Assembly (NCBI GenBank): GCA_947255165.1
Contig: CAMYFZ010000063.1
Coordinates: 1-10,375, forward strand
Source of the DNA: an uncultured Varibaculum sp.
GTDB taxonomy: Bacteria > Actinomycetota > Actinomycetes > Actinomycetales > Actinomycetaceae
Reading direction: 5' to 3'
Length of the DNA: 10,375 nt
Shown here: piece by piece, positions 743-4,657 of the stretch
Numbering within the stretch: position 1 is the stretch's first letter
How the letters are laid out: every line of letters starts with the position of its first letter
Notes under the pieces: model-generated
Told to the model about the DNA's origin: nothing
The model's input: the letters and a program-made list of their open reading frames with translations, nothing else
Database searches by the model: none
Made by a program: the position numbers and the translations under genes

Positions 743-1015
743 TTAGGGTTGTAAGATTTCCAGGTCTATGTACTTTTGATACCGCCGGGAGATTTCTTCC
801 GGGATAGGTCCTATTCTTCCCATAGTTGCAATTGCTCCTTCAAGAACTCCTATGGGGTCTCCTTGCAGGTCTATTCTTATGTTCTGGATTTCTTCATCAG
901 CCACAGGGTCGATATCTCGCCAACATTGGATAATGTCTTCCATGTCTTTTTCCTCTTGCGGAGTTGGTTCCACATAAACCGAACCATCAGACATGACTTC
1001 ACGCCGATCCTCCAT
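743..1015 (-). CDS. Array gene A1: small acidic protein, family A, unknown function
   Basis: This 90-aa protein belongs to the A family with A2 and A3. The three share the N-terminus MEDRREVMSDGSVYVEPTP, an EEEKDMEDI-type acidic segment, and the C-terminus YIDLEIL. A1 is the most diverged copy: its middle (about residues 30-75) barely matches the other two. No signal peptide, membrane segment or metal-binding motif is visible, so a soluble cytoplasmic protein is likely. The start at 1015 is well placed, with GGGGGAG four bases upstream. It lies 60 nt downstream of B1 and is the last gene of the array before the GNAT gene. I do not recognise a named family. The size, acidity and tandem paralogy resemble immunity or antitoxin-type proteins, but that is inference. 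Confidence 0.85.
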   Translation of the reverse strand: MEDRREVMSDGSVYVEPTPQEEKDMEDIIQCWRDIDPVADEEIQNIRIDLQGDPIGVLEGAIATMGRIGPIPEEISRRYQKYIDLEILQP

Positions 1016-1075
1016 CTCGCTCCCCCCTCTTCCCCTGGCTAAAAATCCGCGTCCTTAAGAATCATTTTTTCTTGC

Positions 1076-1372
1076 TTACTCGTCAGCGACAACTAGATCT
1101 TCTAAATCCATACGATCTAGCTTGTCTTGATCCATATAATGACGATAATAATCAATGACTCCCCTGGGAACCGGGGCGTCCTGATTGATGGCCTCCATCA
1201 TGGAGCAAATAAAAATGGTATCCGGTTCCGAAGGTAAAAGTTCTAGTTCTGATTTAACGATATTGCCGAAGGGTGAATCTATTTCAGACTGGTTAATAAC
1301 AAAGTCCCAGATTTCATCGAGCTCTTCCTCCCTGGGTAGAAAATCTTCATCATGGTAATCCATAGTCGTCAT
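1076..1372 (-). CDS. Array gene B1: small acidic protein, family B, unknown function
   Basis: From the ATG at 1372 this is a 98-aa protein of the B family, beginning MTTMDYHDEDFLP and ending VVADE. By hand count it has about 27 Asp/Glu against about 6 Lys/Arg, so it is strongly acidic. Conserved blocks are the N-terminal EEELDEIWDF helix, a central PFG motif, a VP.xxI-YYR block and the MDL tail. The centre differs from B2 and B3. The frame stays open to a GTG at 1399, but there is no good ribosome site there, while ATG 1372 is shared by all three B genes and follows a G-rich run. A third possible start is the MDYH methionine, with AGGATGA before it. It lies between A2 and A1. Function unknown. 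Confidence 0.85.
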   Translation of the reverse strand: MTTMDYHDEDFLPREEELDEIWDFVINQSEIDSPFGNIVKSELELLPSEPDTIFICSMMEAINQDAPVPRGVIDYYRHYMDQDKLDRMDLEDLVVADE

Positions 1373-1430
1373 CCTAGCGCCGCCCCCCGCATTCACCACC
1401 AGGCTTGCGGGTTAGCTGCTGGCTATATTT

Positions 1431-1706
1431 TTAGGGTTGTAAGATTTCCAGATCTATGTAGTGCTGGCACCTATCTTGTATTTCTTGAGGAACCTCAATC
1501 TCGTTCAAATAACAATAAGCAATGAGTATGTCTAGAACAGTGGTAGGTTCACCGTGTGCTTCCATCCGGATGTTATCTACAACCTTTGCAAAATCGGGGG
1601 CTAACTCTTTCCAGCGGACAGCAATATCTTCCATGTCTTTTTCCTCTTCGGGAGTTGGCTCCACATACACCGAACCATCAGACATGACCTCACGCCTATC
1701 CTCCAT
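1431..1706 (-). CDS. Array gene A2: small acidic protein, family A, unknown function
   Basis: This 91-aa A-family protein is nearly identical to A3 over its first 40 or so residues and at the C-terminal QHYIDLEIL. Between about residues 42 and 70 it differs clearly (for example LIAYCYLNEI against LLGYCYWHNV). An ATG three codons upstream (1715) gives MSG-MEDRR, but that ATG abuts the AAAGGAG ribosome site. ATG 1706 is spaced 9 nt from it and matches the A1 and A3 starts, so I chose it. The sequence just upstream of this gene does not resemble that upstream of A1 or A3. That fits an insertion between B2 and A2 that removed or displaced its original leader. Expression may now depend on a promoter inside the insert. 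Function unknown. Confidence 0.85.
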   Translation of the reverse strand: MEDRREVMSDGSVYVEPTPEEEKDMEDIAVRWKELAPDFAKVVDNIRMEAHGEPTTVLDILIAYCYLNEIEVPQEIQDRCQHYIDLEILQP

Positions 1707-1860
1707 CCCACTCATCTCCTTTCAGCTTCTAGCTGCGGCATACACGAGATTTAATACCTTTTCCTATTTGTAATACGGGGTGTAGTAAAGTTAAGCAACG
1801 TTTGGTGGGAACTTTTTTCTTGTAACCAAAATCTAACCTACAGCTACCATTACGATGACA

Positions 1861-1900
1861 GCGGGGGTTCAAAATAAAGCAAGTATCTTGAACCCCCCGC
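1861..1900. promoter_or_regulatory. Inverted repeat upstream of the membrane-protein/HTH pair
   Basis: The arms GGGGGTTCAA (1863-1872) and TTGAACCCCC (1888-1897) are perfect complements around a 15-nt A/T-rich loop. An outer GC pair is also possible with a one-base slip, because the right arm has an extra C. It sits 43 nt before the start at 1943. It could be an operator for the adjacent HTH protein, or a hairpin in the leader RNA. There is no T-run after it, so a simple terminator is unlikely. Confidence 0.5.
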
Positions 1901-1942
1901 AACACCTCTAAATTTACCCCACAAACAAGAAGGTGACTAGAT

Positions 1943-2113
1943 ATGAAAAAAGCAATAAGCGCAGTAATCCCCCTAGCCGCTATCTTCCTAGCCCTGCTCA
2001 CTTTTTCTAGCGATATGCCCTTCTGGATGGCGTGTACCTGCTGGGCTCTATGGGGAACAGGACTAGGGGCAACCATTATCGGTACCGCATGGAAAGGACG
2101 GGAAACCAAGTGA
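1943..2113 (+). CDS. Small hydrophobic membrane protein (56 aa) of a mobile-element remnant
   Basis: This frame begins MKKAISAVIPLAAIFLALL. It has a short positively charged start, a hydrophobic stretch (about residues 7-21), a second hydrophobic segment rich in Trp, Gly and Ala (about 26-50), and the charged tail KGRETK. This predicts one or two membrane spans. The ribosome site AAGAAGGTGA lies at good spacing before the ATG. The stop overlaps the start of the following HTH gene (GTGA), so the two are probably translationally coupled. Tiny membrane proteins next to excisionase-like genes occur in actinobacterial conjugative plasmids, where some are spread proteins. I infer such an origin but cannot assign a function. 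It runs opposite to the surrounding array genes. Confidence 0.65.
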   Translation: MKKAISAVIPLAAIFLALLTFSSDMPFWMACTCWALWGTGLGATIIGTAWKGRETK

Positions 2114-2313
2114 CCAAACACTACCTATCCAGAATGCAATTCGCCGCCCGCATCGGAGTAAAACCTGCCTCCCTGTCCCGCTACAAACTACCCACCCCAG
2201 ACGTGATAGTTGGCCCCGATACCCGCCCCGTGCAAGGATGGAGCACTGAGACAATCGATAAATGGAACGCAGCCAGACCAGGACGCGGAAGCCGAACCGA
2301 TCTCAAGCAGTAA
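2110..2313 (+). CDS. Excisionase-like helix-turn-helix protein
   Basis: From the GTG at 2110 this is a 67-aa protein. Residues about 6-25 (SRMQFAARIGVKPASLSRY) form a MerR/excisionase-type winged HTH. The following GPDTRPVQGWSTETIDKWN and the ARPGRGSR tail are characteristic of the small DNA-binding proteins found beside integrase or replication genes in actinobacterial integrative elements and plasmids. The frame stays open upstream to 2032. The GTG is favoured because it overlaps the stop of the membrane-protein gene (GTGA) and because the family normally starts a few residues before the HTH. The role by family is excision directionality or transcription control. No partner integrase is present here, so it may be an orphan. 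Confidence 0.75.
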   Translation: MTKHYLSRMQFAARIGVKPASLSRYKLPTPDVIVGPDTRPVQGWSTETIDKWNAARPGRGSRTDLKQ

Positions 2314-2665
2314 TGCCATGGCAACAACCGCTAGCGTTAACTAGCCTTCGAGGCAGACATCCGCTTATTGTTACACAGATTCCAGCTCTGCAAGCTCAGA
2401 ATGACCGTAGGAACGTATCCGCGCAGACGGTAAAATTTCTGGAACCAAAACGCCGTCCGCTTGAGATTCAACATAATCAATAAAAAGCCCCACGCTTGTC
2501 AGACCCGATGGTGGGTTATAACGACCTGGAATAGTGCTTTGCTGTCCACTTATCTGCTCAACTCGTCTATTACGATTCTTATTGAGCCCCGCTAACAAAC
2601 TCACCTGCCTTAACGAGGACCCTCTTGTCCCTTCCGCCAACTAAGACTCCCTCGCTTCACCTTGC
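2314..2665. other. Gene-poor remainder of the insert
   Basis: This 352-bp stretch lies between the HTH gene and the stop of B2. On the minus strand a TTG-started frame of 89 codons (2640-2371) begins 25 nt after B2, roughly where an A gene would be expected. Its protein does not resemble the A family or any family I recognise. There is no convincing ribosome site, so I do not call it a gene. Bases just after the B2 stop still resemble the ends of the other B genes (GCAAG), then similarity to the normal spacer is lost. I see no clear terminator, repeat or RNA gene. Confidence 0.4.
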
Positions 2666-2962
2666 CTACTCGTCAGCGACAATAAGCTTGCTCAGATCCA
2701 TATAGTCTATTTGGTCTTTATCCATAAAGCCGCGGTAATACTCAATAATGCTTTTTGAAACCGGGACTCTTCTATTAACCGCTTGGAGAAGGCAAACCCA
2801 GAAAATAGTCGTAGGTTCTGGAGGAAAACTCTCCAGTTTCGCTCTAGCAATCCTGCCGAAAGGTGTATCTAACTCAGACTGTGCAATCAGGAAGTCCCAG
2901 ATTTCATCTAGTTCTTCCTCACTAGGTAGAAAATCCTCATCATGGTAATCCATATCCGTCAT
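2666..2962 (-). CDS. Array gene B2: small acidic protein, family B, unknown function
   Basis: From the ATG at 2962 this is a 98-aa B-family protein starting MTDMDYHDEDFLP and ending LSKLIVADE. It shares long stretches with B3: EEELDEIWDFLIAQSELDTP near the N-terminus, and IIEYYRGFMDKDQIDYMDL at the C-terminus. The middle (about residues 50-70) differs, with IFWVCLLQAVNRRVPVSK here against VFYTSLVRASNNKIPVPR in B3. An upstream in-frame ATG (2989) has no ribosome site. ATG 2962 follows GGGAGG at about 10 nt. The gene lies between A3 and the insertion, which now separates it from its presumed partner A2. Soluble and acidic; function unknown. Confidence 0.85.
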   Translation of the reverse strand: MTDMDYHDEDFLPSEEELDEIWDFLIAQSELDTPFGRIARAKLESFPPEPTTIFWVCLLQAVNRRVPVSKSIIEYYRGFMDKDQIDYMDLSKLIVADE

Positions 2963-3021
2963 CCTAGCGCCGCCTCCCGCCTTCACCATCAGGCATGTGA
3001 GTTAGTTTTTGGCCTATATTT

Positions 3022-3297
3022 TTAGACTTCTAAGATTTCCAGGTCTATGTAGTGCTGGCATCTATCTCGTATTTCTTGCGGAACCTCGACATTATGCCAA
3101 TAACAATAACCTAAGAGCGCTTCTAGGACAGTGGTTGGTTCTCCGTGCACTTCCATCCGGATGGCATCGACATCCTTTGCAAAATCGGGGGCTAGTTCCT
3201 TCCAGCGGACAGCAATGTCTTCCATGTCTTTTTCCTCTTCGGGAGTTGGTTCTACATAAACCGAACCATCAGACATGACTTCACGCCGATCCTCCAT
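3022..3297 (-). CDS. Array gene A3: small acidic protein, family A, unknown function
   Basis: This 91-aa A-family protein has about 24 Asp/Glu against about 9 Lys/Arg by hand count. It starts MEDRREVMSDGSVYVEP and ends YIDLEILEV. Its ribosome site AAGGAGAG lies about 8-10 nt upstream. Its second half, EPTTV-(Leu-rich helix)-N-VEVPQEI-DR-HYIDLEIL, lines up with the second half of the B proteins (EPTTI-helix-N-VPV-II-YYR-DYMDL). This suggests that A and B are distant paralogues. It lies 59 nt after B3 and is followed by B2. No catalytic or membrane motif is visible; function unknown. Confidence 0.85.
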   Translation of the reverse strand: MEDRREVMSDGSVYVEPTPEEEKDMEDIAVRWKELAPDFAKDVDAIRMEVHGEPTTVLEALLGYCYWHNVEVPQEIRDRCQHYIDLEILEV

Positions 3298-3356
3298 CTC
3301 GATCGCTCTCCTTCACTGGCTAAAATTCCGAATCCTTAACAATCATTTTTTCTTGC

Positions 3357-3653
3357 TTAGTCGTCAGCGACAATAAGCTTGCTCAGATCCATATAGTCTA
3401 TTTGGTCTTTATCCATAAAACCGCGGTAATACTCAATAATACTTCTAGGAACCGGAATTTTATTATTACTTGCCCGTACAAGGCTGGTATAAAAGACAGT
3501 TGTAGATTCCGGAGGTAAACTCTCCAGTTTCGCTTTAGCAATCCTACCGAAAGGTGTATCTAACTCAGACTGTGCAATAAGGAAGTCCTGGATTTCATCG
3601 AGCTCTTCCTCGCTGGGTAGAAAATCTTCATCATGGTAATCCATAACCGTCAT
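3357..3653 (-). CDS. Array gene B3: small acidic protein, family B, first gene of the array
   Basis: From the ATG at 3653 this is a 98-aa B-family protein, beginning MTVMDYHDEDFLP and ending LSKLIVADD. It closely matches B2 at both ends and differs in the middle. The frame is open to a TTG at 3692, but that extension is unlike the other copies and lacks a ribosome site, so I chose the shared ATG. It is the promoter-proximal gene of the array. Its upstream region is shared with the divergent toxin-antitoxin-like operon and contains two direct repeats, so co-regulation is possible. No clear minus-strand promoter could be fixed; TTGTCA boxes within the repeats are candidates for -35. Function unknown. 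Confidence 0.85.
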   Translation of the reverse strand: MTVMDYHDEDFLPSEEELDEIQDFLIAQSELDTPFGRIAKAKLESLPPESTTVFYTSLVRASNNKIPVPRSIIEYYRGFMDKDQIDYMDLSKLIVADD

Positions 3654-3710: not shown

Positions 3711-3758
3711 TTGTTCCGAACTATTGACAAACTGATTTTTGTTCCGAATAATTGACAA
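3711..3758. repeat. Two 20-bp direct repeats in the divergent promoter region
   Basis: TTGTTCCGAACTATTGACAA (3711-3730) and TTGTTCCGAATAATTGACAA (3739-3758) match at 18 of 20 positions, 28 bp apart. Each has TTGT...ACAA ends and the core GTTCCGAA. They overlap the promoter of the plus-strand operon and lie in the shared region upstream of array gene B3. They are likely binding sites for a regulator, possibly the HTH antitoxin encoded at 3975-4241. Confidence 0.6.
3724..3752 (+). promoter_or_regulatory. Sigma-70-type promoter of the toxin-antitoxin-like operon
   Basis: TTGACA (3724-3729, all six consensus bases) is followed by a 17-bp spacer and AATAAT (3747-3752, five of six). The predicted transcript start, about 7 nt later, falls at or next to the GTG at 3760. 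This implies a leaderless message. The -35 lies in the first direct repeat and the -10 in the second. Confidence 0.6.
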
Positions 3759-3759
3759 G

Positions 3760-3978
3760 GTGGAGATTTTTGACAGCGCCCTAAAACACGGCGTTAGCAA
3801 AGAAGATATTTTCCACTCTTTACGTAACCCCATACGACTGTACGGACTCGGGAATGAAGTTGAAATGCTGATAGGAGCAGCAAGGAATGGCTCGCTACTA
3901 GAAATAGGGATAGCCGATAAGACACGAATAATCCACGCTATGAAAGCTCGTAGCAAATATACGAGGTGTTTGAAATGA
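3760..3978 (+). CDS. BrnT-like toxin family protein (putative)
   Basis: From the GTG at 3760 this is a 72-aa protein reading VEIFDSALKHGVSKEDI at its start. It then has NPIRL, the MLIGAARNGSLLEIG strand pair, and RIIHAMKARSKYTR at the C-terminus. This pattern (KHGVS...DI, G.A.NG.LLE, IIHAMKAR.KY) is that of small actinobacterial proteins related to the BrnT RNase-toxin fold. By family it would cleave RNA in the cytoplasm until bound by its antitoxin; neither activity can be proved here. A TTG seven codons upstream (3739) is also in frame but lies between the -35 and -10 and has no ribosome site, so the GTG at the predicted transcript start is preferred. The stop overlaps the next gene by ATGA. 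Alternative: a conserved protein of unrelated function with the same partner. Confidence 0.65.
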   Translation: MEIFDSALKHGVSKEDIFHSLRNPIRLYGLGNEVEMLIGAARNGSLLEIGIADKTRIIHAMKARSKYTRCLK

Positions 3979-4241
3979 GTGAACCCCGAAAAAACATGAG
4001 TGATGAAGAATTAGCAGATTGGTTCGAGTTTCAGGCAGAGCCTGAAGACTTTGATTATGTTATTGAGGGTGACCCGGTTAAAGCTCTGATGCGCGTGCGT
4101 TTAGAACGAGCGAGAATAGAAAAAGACGAAAAAGATGCCGTCACTATCGCCCGTAAACAAGGGATTACCTGGGAGGTTATAGGGCAGGCTCTCGGGATGT
4201 CTCGTCAAGGAGCTTTCCAAAAATATGCCCCTCTACTTTAA
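3975..4241 (+). CDS. HTH protein, putative antitoxin partner
   Basis: This 88-aa protein has an acidic N-terminal half (DEELADWFEFQAEPEDFD), a charged helix (about residues 35-57), and a C-terminal helix-turn-helix reading ARKQGITWEVIGQALGMSRQ, then AFQKYAPLL. Toxin-antitoxin partners often pair a DNA-binding domain with a toxin-wrapping segment; here the HTH is C-terminal and the N-terminal half could contact the toxin. The ATG at 3975 overlaps the toxin stop (ATGA), and GAGGTG sits six bases upstream. The frame opens from a GTG at 3966, but that codon is inside the ribosome site. The toxin-first gene order is like brnT-brnA, although this HTH is not the ribbon-helix-helix of BrnA. It probably represses its own promoter through the 20-bp repeats (inference). 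Confidence 0.65.
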   Translation: MSEPRKNMSDEELADWFEFQAEPEDFDYVIEGDPVKALMRVRLERARIEKDEKDAVTIARKQGITWEVIGQALGMSRQGAFQKYAPLL

Positions 4242-4297: not shown

Positions 4298-4422
4298 GCG
4301 CGGGGGGCTAGGTTTTATCCGAGTGGGTGCGGTGGGCATAAGAATTCGGAAAACGTCGCCACGTTTTCCGAATTCTTGGGCAGGAGGAAAAACCTAGCCC
4401 CTGCGCCGAAACCTCCCCGCGC
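4298..4422. repeat. Large nested inverted repeat (cruciform or structured RNA)
   Basis: The inner arms AAGAATTCGGAAAACGT (4340-4356) and ACGTTTTCCGAATTCTT (4361-4377) are perfect 17-bp complements around the loop CGCC. The outer arms GGGGCTAGGTTTT (4304-4316) and AAAACCTAGCCCC (4389-4401) pair over 13 bp. GCGCGGGG (4298-4305) can alternatively pair with CCCCGCGC (4415-4422). No T-run follows, so it is not a standard terminator. It contains no gene. It may be a mobile-element end, a repeated palindromic element or a non-coding RNA. Confidence 0.75.
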
Positions 4423-4564: not shown

Positions 4565-4584
4565 ACCGTTCGGACTCCTCATCG

Positions 4585-4657
4585 TGGAGCTAAGGGGATT
4601 CGAACCCCTGACCTTCTCATTGCGAACGAGACGCGCTACCAACTGCGCCATAGCCCC
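4585..4657 (-). tRNA. tRNA-Ala (anticodon CGC)
   Basis: The minus strand folds into a full 73-nt cloverleaf. The acceptor is GGGGCTA/TAGCTCC with the G3-U70 pair that marks alanine tRNAs. The D-arm is GCGC-AGTTGGTA-GCGC. The anticodon stem is TCTCG/TGAGA with loop TTCGCAA, so the anticodon is CGC, reading GCG codons. The T-arm is AGGGG-TTCGAAT-CCCCT, followed by discriminator A. CCA is not encoded. Protein frames read across this region on either strand are artefacts of the tRNA sequence. Confidence 0.96.

Follow-up and report, generated by a model that had tools for sequence, protein, structure and literature searches.

A probable orphan polyimmunity array in Varibaculum directed against toxin domains of a phage head protein

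Introduction

For MuF toxins, delivery during DNA injection has been put forward as a hypothesis (Jamet 2017, PMC5576092), in a study in which a small gene was found directly downstream in 89.4% of 191 MuF toxin genes and in which EndoU-type domains were included. Two antibacterial MuF toxins, Bxa and Apk2, are neutralized by neighboring immunity proteins, as established experimentally (PMC11699363, PMC12226406), and extra immunity genes within MuF clusters have been the subject of speculation (PMC11699363). Immunity genes also form polyimmunity loci, with a recombinase alongside in several cases (Zhang 2012, PMC3482391), and acidic interface residues have been described for I2 (PMC5361080 / PMC12247911). 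These statements, and those made below on the same papers, refer to the accessible portions of each source. Here we analyze a stretch of 10,375 nucleotides (contig CAMYFZ010000063.1 of assembly GCA_947255165.1; hereafter the window) from an uncultured, human-associated Varibaculum sp., which carries an array of six small genes of two types, A and B. We consider it highly probable that the six genes constitute an orphan polyimmunity locus, in which A would block the class I form and B the class II form of an EndoU-like domain borne by the MuF/VG15 head protein of Varibaculum temperate phages. Four observations are seen directly in the sequence: A is linked to a toxin gene in one prophage, the toxin domains fall into two classes, a toxin remnant lies at B2, and phage junctions are found at A3 of two related genomes. 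Polyimmunity loci themselves are known; what would be new here is polyimmunity aimed at MuF toxins, a type not previously tied to polyimmunity in the literature that we searched.

Results

An array of six small acidic proteins

The array spans positions 743-3653 on the minus strand and comprises six open frames, with a transcription order of A1-B1-A2, a gap of 959 bp, and B2-A3-B3. Its features are as follows, with lengths in amino acids (aa).

3357-3653, minus strand: A1, predicted immunity protein with 98 aa, of class I type; its identity to the A gene that adjoins a VG15 toxin in a prophage (locus L021) is 76%
3022-3297, minus strand: B1, predicted immunity protein of class II type, 91 aa; an overlapping toxin frame over its first codons reads DGGSA-stop
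2666-2962, minus strand: A2, predicted immunity protein of class I type, 98 aa, 88% identical to protein P0010 and 86% to P0017
1707-2665, no strand assigned: array interruption, 959 bp between A2 and B2, with plus-strand frames at 1943-2113 and 2110-2313 and the toxin-gene remnant
1693-1764, minus strand: toxin remnant, decayed and interrupted by in-frame stops, which corresponds to the final 24 codons of a class II VG15 toxin and overlaps the B2 start
1431-1706, minus strand: B2, predicted immunity protein of class II type, 91 aa
1076-1372, minus strand: A3, predicted immunity protein of a third A subtype, with an array-type 5' end and the body of another subtype
743-1015, minus strand: B3, predicted immunity protein of a third B subtype, 90 aa

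The six proteins have 90 to 98 residues, of which 21 to 27 are acidic versus 6 to 9 basic, and isoelectric points (pI) of 4.05 to 4.31. Identity to the first member of the type is 82 and 61% for the remaining A copies and 85 and 54% for the remaining B copies, and matches of copy against copy within the window (tblastn E <= 2e-25) are far past chance. A and B are mutually distant relatives (hhalign probability 87.8, a value reached by none of 200 column shuffles). The genes are co-oriented and are separated by spacers of 58 to 60 bp, the single exception being the 959-bp gap. Neither A nor B matched a family below an E value of 0.05 in Pfam, NCBIfam, PHROGs, or PADLOC, the best scores being those of DUF6832 (0.069) and phrog_18888 (0.074), and no helix-turn-helix (HTH) or antitoxin family was found in them by the same scans. 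An array of DNA-binding antitoxins was rejected on the latter ground. Solved structures gave no match below E 0.3 for A and B, nor below E 0.9 for the toxin domain described below, and a scan for promoters and terminators gave no clear surplus over shuffled sequences.

An earlier description of the window from its letters alone (the sequence-only reading) had reported six acidic paralogues without a recognized family; all six frames, their acidity, and the lack of matches were confirmed, the last by the profile searches of A and B that it had proposed. The same reading had seen three stacked pairs in strict alternation. Six minus-strand genes are indeed present, in an array that is broken by 959 bp between A2 and B2 and in which the order of transcription is A-B; the alternation holds within the window and is not universal, a related array (L019) being arranged as A-B-A-A-B.

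A adjoins a putative head-protein toxin gene in a prophage

A lone A gene is carried by a prophage of the related genome G001 (L021, 9292-9579), where it begins 12 bp past a gene for a VG15/MuF-type head protein (L021, 7780-9279; VG15, PF25310, E=6.5e-24; phrog_193, E=1.1e-33). The order of genes is portal, VG15 gene, A, candidate scaffold (assigned by position, with no family match), and major capsid; genes for the terminase and the tape measure lie in the surroundings. A search that used the C-terminal part of the head protein as its query found 12 VG15 relatives, and all 13 proteins are near-identical over residues 1-360 and divergent beyond. Measured along 12 proteins, the mean entropy per 20 residues is at most 0.31 before residue 360 and 0.51 to 1.45 after it, with a peak at residues 441-480. 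The C-terminal domains form two classes, about 41% identical to each other, on an otherwise near-identical head protein. A constant N-terminal part combined with variable C-terminal domains in two classes corresponds to the design of polymorphic toxins, and the position of the lone A gene, directly after a VG15 gene with a hypervariable C-terminal domain, corresponds to the layout of a phage-borne polymorphic toxin and its immunity gene. The sequence-only reading had mentioned immunity proteins of polymorphic toxins and had proposed a survey of the neighbors of homologs for toxin genes; the VG15 toxin-like gene beside the lone A strongly supports that suggestion, the partner being a putative phage head-protein toxin encoded outside the window.

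Longest-contig sizes provide a second link between A and the toxin. Three of the 34 A clusters and three of the 9 class I toxin clusters have identical sizes (3221, 5558, and 27007; 0 of 20000 in a crude jitter null), and the A2-like proteins P0010 and P0017 pair in this way with the class I toxins P0057 and P0056. The three size-matched A proteins and the A protein of the G001 prophage start with MTLNDEDF, unlike the array copies read; three more A proteins, with no size-matched toxin cluster, start likewise. The class I domain of P0048 is basic (pI 9.1), versus the acidic A proteins. From the prophage linkage and the three matched contig sizes, A is the predicted partner of the class I toxin.

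B carries a probable signature of class II toxins

When the first codons of the B genes are read one frame over, they give DGGSA followed by a stop at seven of nine starts, and the other two starts are one residue off. DGGSA is the C-terminus of the class II proteins P0059 and P0060, and P0058, also of class II, ends in DGGPA, which, as reasoned from the protein sequence, is reachable by a change that is silent in the B protein. Since the nine B starts are related, they count as one match of five residues plus a stop, with a chance of about 20^-5 by a simple count. Upstream of B2, GKGIKSRVCRSXKLKGDEWDGGXA aligns in register with the end of P0060, GKGYYEWIDNSWKLQGGDWDGGSA. This remnant gave a tblastn match at 1824-1693 (E=0.01 against a local database of small size) and a local alignment score of 63 to the C-terminus of P0060, and in an end-anchored test 0 of 5000 mononucleotide shuffles were as good, at both 10 and 20 residues before the overlap. 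A gapped local test yielded low p values for B2 of L018 (the G001 array) and B1 of L019, and p<0.05 for B1 of the window, of L018, and of L020; the register is unchecked in this test, and the end-anchored test was relied on. The statement of the sequence-only reading that the window holds no toxin gene is thus correct for intact genes and misses the decayed toxin 3' end at about 1693-1764. The possibility that the array protects against a secreted toxin from the window itself was considered separately and rejected, no such toxin having been found among the frames scanned.

A further likeness connects B with the small genes located behind other VG15 toxin-like genes, with hhalign probabilities of 68% for 8 genes, 88% for 14, and 72% for all 18, the 14 being the 18 minus four genes unlike the rest; shuffles scored as high in 0 of 200, 0 of 100, and 0 of 100 cases, respectively. 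Because of the DGGSA-stop in the overlapping frame, the remnant at B2, and this likeness to genes that follow VG15 genes, we propose that B pairs with the class II toxin.

The toxin domain resembles EndoU

The profile of the toxin domain matched a profile built from six further VG15 C-terminal domains, which belong to related actinobacteria and Corynebacterium phages, with an hhalign probability of 77% (none of 200 column shuffles scored as high). Eight such VG15 proteins were scanned; five match EndoU_bacteria weakly, at E values of 2e-5 to 0.04 (at the cut-off in one case and below it in four), and one has a CdiA_C domain (E=1.5e-16). The Corynebacterium phages Poushou and Juicebox have the same gene order, in which the portal gene is succeeded by a VG15 gene with an EndoU annotation, a small gene (85-90 aa), and the scaffold gene. 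Both strands of all 24 loci were considered, with the exclusion of one truncated frame: of the 18 VG15 proteins whose C-terminal part is long, 14 have a gene of 70-113 aa directly downstream, at a distance of -41 to +16 bases, as against 0 of the 5 short ones. Judging by sequence, the Varibaculum class I and II domains likely have ribonuclease (RNase) activity.

A related genome contains, at L031 1405-2664, a VG15 head protein with a CdiA_C toxin domain (E=1.5e-16), and a 91-aa gene follows it.

Probable capture, duplication, and exchange

The phage toxin-A junction, 18 letters made up of the 12-bp junction and the first A codons, precedes A3 in G001 (1 mismatch) and in the genome G003 (3 mismatches), with 0.01 such occurrences expected by chance per stretch, and this is the trace expected from the capture of a gene from a phage. 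Likeness between spacers amounts to 65-95% for the A-B type and, in four cases of five, to 76-86% for the B-A type, so that the alternation of the two types follows from duplication of a two-gene unit. Within the window, A1 and A2 are 84-100% identical at both ends and drop to 55% in mid-gene, and the nucleotide identity between A3 and the A3 of G001 runs along the gene at 63-84% and then at 93-100%. In both A and B the central segment is the most variable and the 3' ends are less so. Conserved ends with a variable middle fit exchange between copies, in the manner reported for the esaG and tipC immunity genes (PMC9484751).

Distribution

Of 59 whole genomes searched, 3 contain A and 5 contain B, and all of these belong to one genus. 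The array order is A-B-A-B-A-B in G001, A-B-A-A-B in G003, and A-B in G005; in G002 and G004 the sole survivor is the 3' part of a B3-like gene, adjoining an acetyltransferase gene that also ends the window. In a contig database, A as a query gave one locus, that of Varibaculum vaginae (which is G003), and B was found in 1 of 396 genomes of the order (G001), a sample that missed other carriers. The class I domain occurs in 1 of 151 genomes; for the complete toxin protein the count is 23 of 151, largely owing to matches in its VG15 part. The toxin-domain profile had matches in 2 of 396 genomes, the second of which (G259, E=2e-4) lies in a stretch whose frames were read as chance. IMG/VR held no confirmed homolog of A, B, or the toxin; phage and plasmid records gave no real match to A (best E 3); and phage records, the only ones of these two sets searched for B, gave no B, nor a class II domain (best E 0.8 for the latter).

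The neighborhood of the array

Three further features of the window lie within or beside the array.

2110-2313, plus strand: frame in the array gap, phage-type DNA-binding protein (phrog_597, E=1.8e-22)
3739-4241, plus strand: candidate toxin-antitoxin pair, with a toxin at 3739-3978 (phrog_17063, E=2.6e-7) and an HTH protein at 3978-4241 (phrog_686, E=1.7e-5)
4584-4657, minus strand: tRNA-Ala(CGC); the array and variable cargo adjoin this tRNA in several Varibaculum genomes

The candidate toxin-antitoxin pair is placed between the tRNA gene and the array. The window and four of five stretches from relatives have a tRNA-Ala(CGC) gene close to the site; in L020 none was called. The cargo of the site changes from genome to genome: G001 has an integrase (PF00589, E=6.4e-15, at the same site) and a SocA-Panacea/GNAT pair, G005 has DarT with a NADAR antitoxin, and the window has the candidate toxin-antitoxin pair. 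No recombinase was found among the scanned frames of the window. From this gene content, the tRNA-side site looks like a defense hotspot.

Near the G001 array, an HTH gene that resembles the frame at 2110-2313 (L018, 8685-8894) matches PADLOC mad1 (E=2.7e-7). Just before the G005 array, L020 7330-8773 encodes a DarT ADP-ribosyltransferase (E=5e-10) and a NADAR-DarT1 antitoxin (E=4e-87). A dispersed palindromic repeat at 4305-4411 of the window is found twice in L022 (15337-15444 and 18183-18280) and inside a match in L020 (8911-9162).

Discussion

Several of our results weigh against the view that the array confers immunity to VG15 toxins. The class I and class II domains score below the cut-off of every toxin family (the best match outside VG15, Paxt-1_C at 4e-5, is itself sub-cut-off), and they match no solved structure. 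The A family shows little likeness to the small genes that follow VG15 genes, with an hhalign probability of 0.4% and 34 of 200 shuffles as good, and of 3-4% with larger sets, where 2 and 0 of 100 shuffles were as good. At the eight B starts other than that of B2 of the window, the upstream sequence consists mostly of array spacer, and the end-anchored test over 20 residues gave no significance for five (p=0.11-0.46) and a weak result for three (p=0.005-0.025). In addition, no B cluster matches any toxin cluster in longest-contig size, P0058 has a class II domain of almost neutral character (pI 7.2), and B would be paired with a class whose phage locus is known from proteins only. Finally, toxin relatives were sought with the class I domain as query, and further, more distant classes may have been missed.

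The alternative that survives best, which we regard as unlikely, is that the array is a plain leftover, made of immunity genes that outlasted decayed toxins or departed prophages and that bring no present benefit. The decayed toxin end at B2 is compatible with this explanation, as are the genomes G002 and G004, which keep just a 3' piece of a B3-like gene. However, the ratio of nonsynonymous to synonymous substitution rates (dN/dS) is low, 0.01-0.38, for 12 of 13 gene pairs chosen as matching between genomes (the value for A3 of the window versus A3 of G001, which differ in their 5' ends, is 0.78), so the array proteins seem to be in use. Moreover, G001 and the window each have six intact genes, in blocks at 89-91% nucleotide identity.

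We attribute a still smaller probability to the possibility that A is a structural or assembly accessory of the phage, such as a chaperone of VG15, the chromosomal copies then being prophage remnants or decoys that disturb assembly. Indeed, A is located inside a head-morphogenesis cluster, and small proteins occur at the same place in other phages. Yet a chaperone does not account well for VG15 proteins that vary almost solely in their C-terminal part, for a known toxin domain on another VG15 protein, or for small following genes that accompany long and not short VG15 proteins; besides, the A and B copies of the window array are under purifying selection, and no significant match to the N-terminal part of VG15 was found within the array. 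Least probable of all is the proposal of the sequence-only reading that each pair acts as a unit of one function, for instance as an A-B heterodimer or a paired antitoxin: it would explain the alternation seen in the window, in G001, and in G005 and has the conserved A-B spacers (55-60 bp in 8 of 9) in its favor, but the likeness of the spacers is what a unit duplicated in tandem would show, A stands alone beside the toxin in the prophage (L021), A-A neighbors occur in L019, and the overlap signature in B belongs to a different toxin class, which leaves the proposal unsupported, with A and B tracing to alternative toxin classes.

Our working model for the polyimmunity reading is restated here, with binding, neutralization, RNase activity, toxin injection, and the pairing of B with class II as the steps that we infer from sequence. 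Immunity genes would have been taken from phage toxin-immunity loci and duplicated as an A-B unit, the central segments being diversified by recombination. A toxin domain would enter the cell with the particle of a VG15-toxin phage, or would be met otherwise, e.g., from neighboring lysogens, and the matching A or B protein would bind and block it in the cytoplasm. Breadth would come from the presence of several subtypes of each class side by side, and a cell without the prophage would be protected. We see an even chance that the array serves, in this manner, as a defense against phage toxins, i.e., as a chromosomal record of the immunity genes of past phages that would let non-lysogens survive head-borne toxins and to which recombination would add subtypes at the tRNA-side hotspot.

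If this is true, the array is to our knowledge the first orphan array devoted to virion-borne MuF toxins. Delivery of MuF toxins by phage particles is a hypothesis, and the array makes the guess of injection testable; immunity arrays kept over several species are the expectation if prophage-free cells repeatedly meet MuF toxins. The array, the toxin classes, and the lone prophage pair together make up a small, concrete test system and add two unnamed families of predicted immunity proteins.

Our literature searches (MuF toxins, orphan immunity, polyimmunity/prophage) found no report of such an array, most subscription papers lying outside their coverage. The Varibaculum locus and the MuF toxins of PMC5576092 are alike in having a toxin domain, putative in Varibaculum, fused to a head protein that is encoded just past the portal. 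Unlike in that study, two genus-restricted families of predicted immunity proteins without a described domain are present here, together with orphan chromosomal arrays; the accessible text of PMC5576092 makes no mention of orphan, array, or tandem. The domains of Bxa and Apk2 are an ADP-ribosyltransferase or an alarmone synthetase, and the accessible parts of PMC11699363 and PMC12226406 describe no orphan chromosomal array. Orphan genes retained or acquired against the toxins of others, as proposed here, are also found in the orphan immunity arrays of type VI secretion systems (PMC5361080) and in the recombinase-associated rAID arrays (PMC12247911); in those cases delivery is by type VI secretion in Gram-negative bacteria, whereas here it would be by phage particles, in an actinobacterium. 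The EsaG/TipC immunity strings of type VII secretion systems (PMC9484751) consist of tandem paralogues that share conserved blocks and recombine with one another, and A and B seemingly behave likewise, although those strings concern secreted toxins and are built of different proteins. The polyimmunity loci (PMC3482391) share with the window tandem, co-oriented immunity paralogues, the lack of an intact toxin gene between them, and variability between strains. Their families are SUKH, Imm11, and others, whereas the Varibaculum array combines undescribed families, toxins of a phage head protein, and a toxin remnant.

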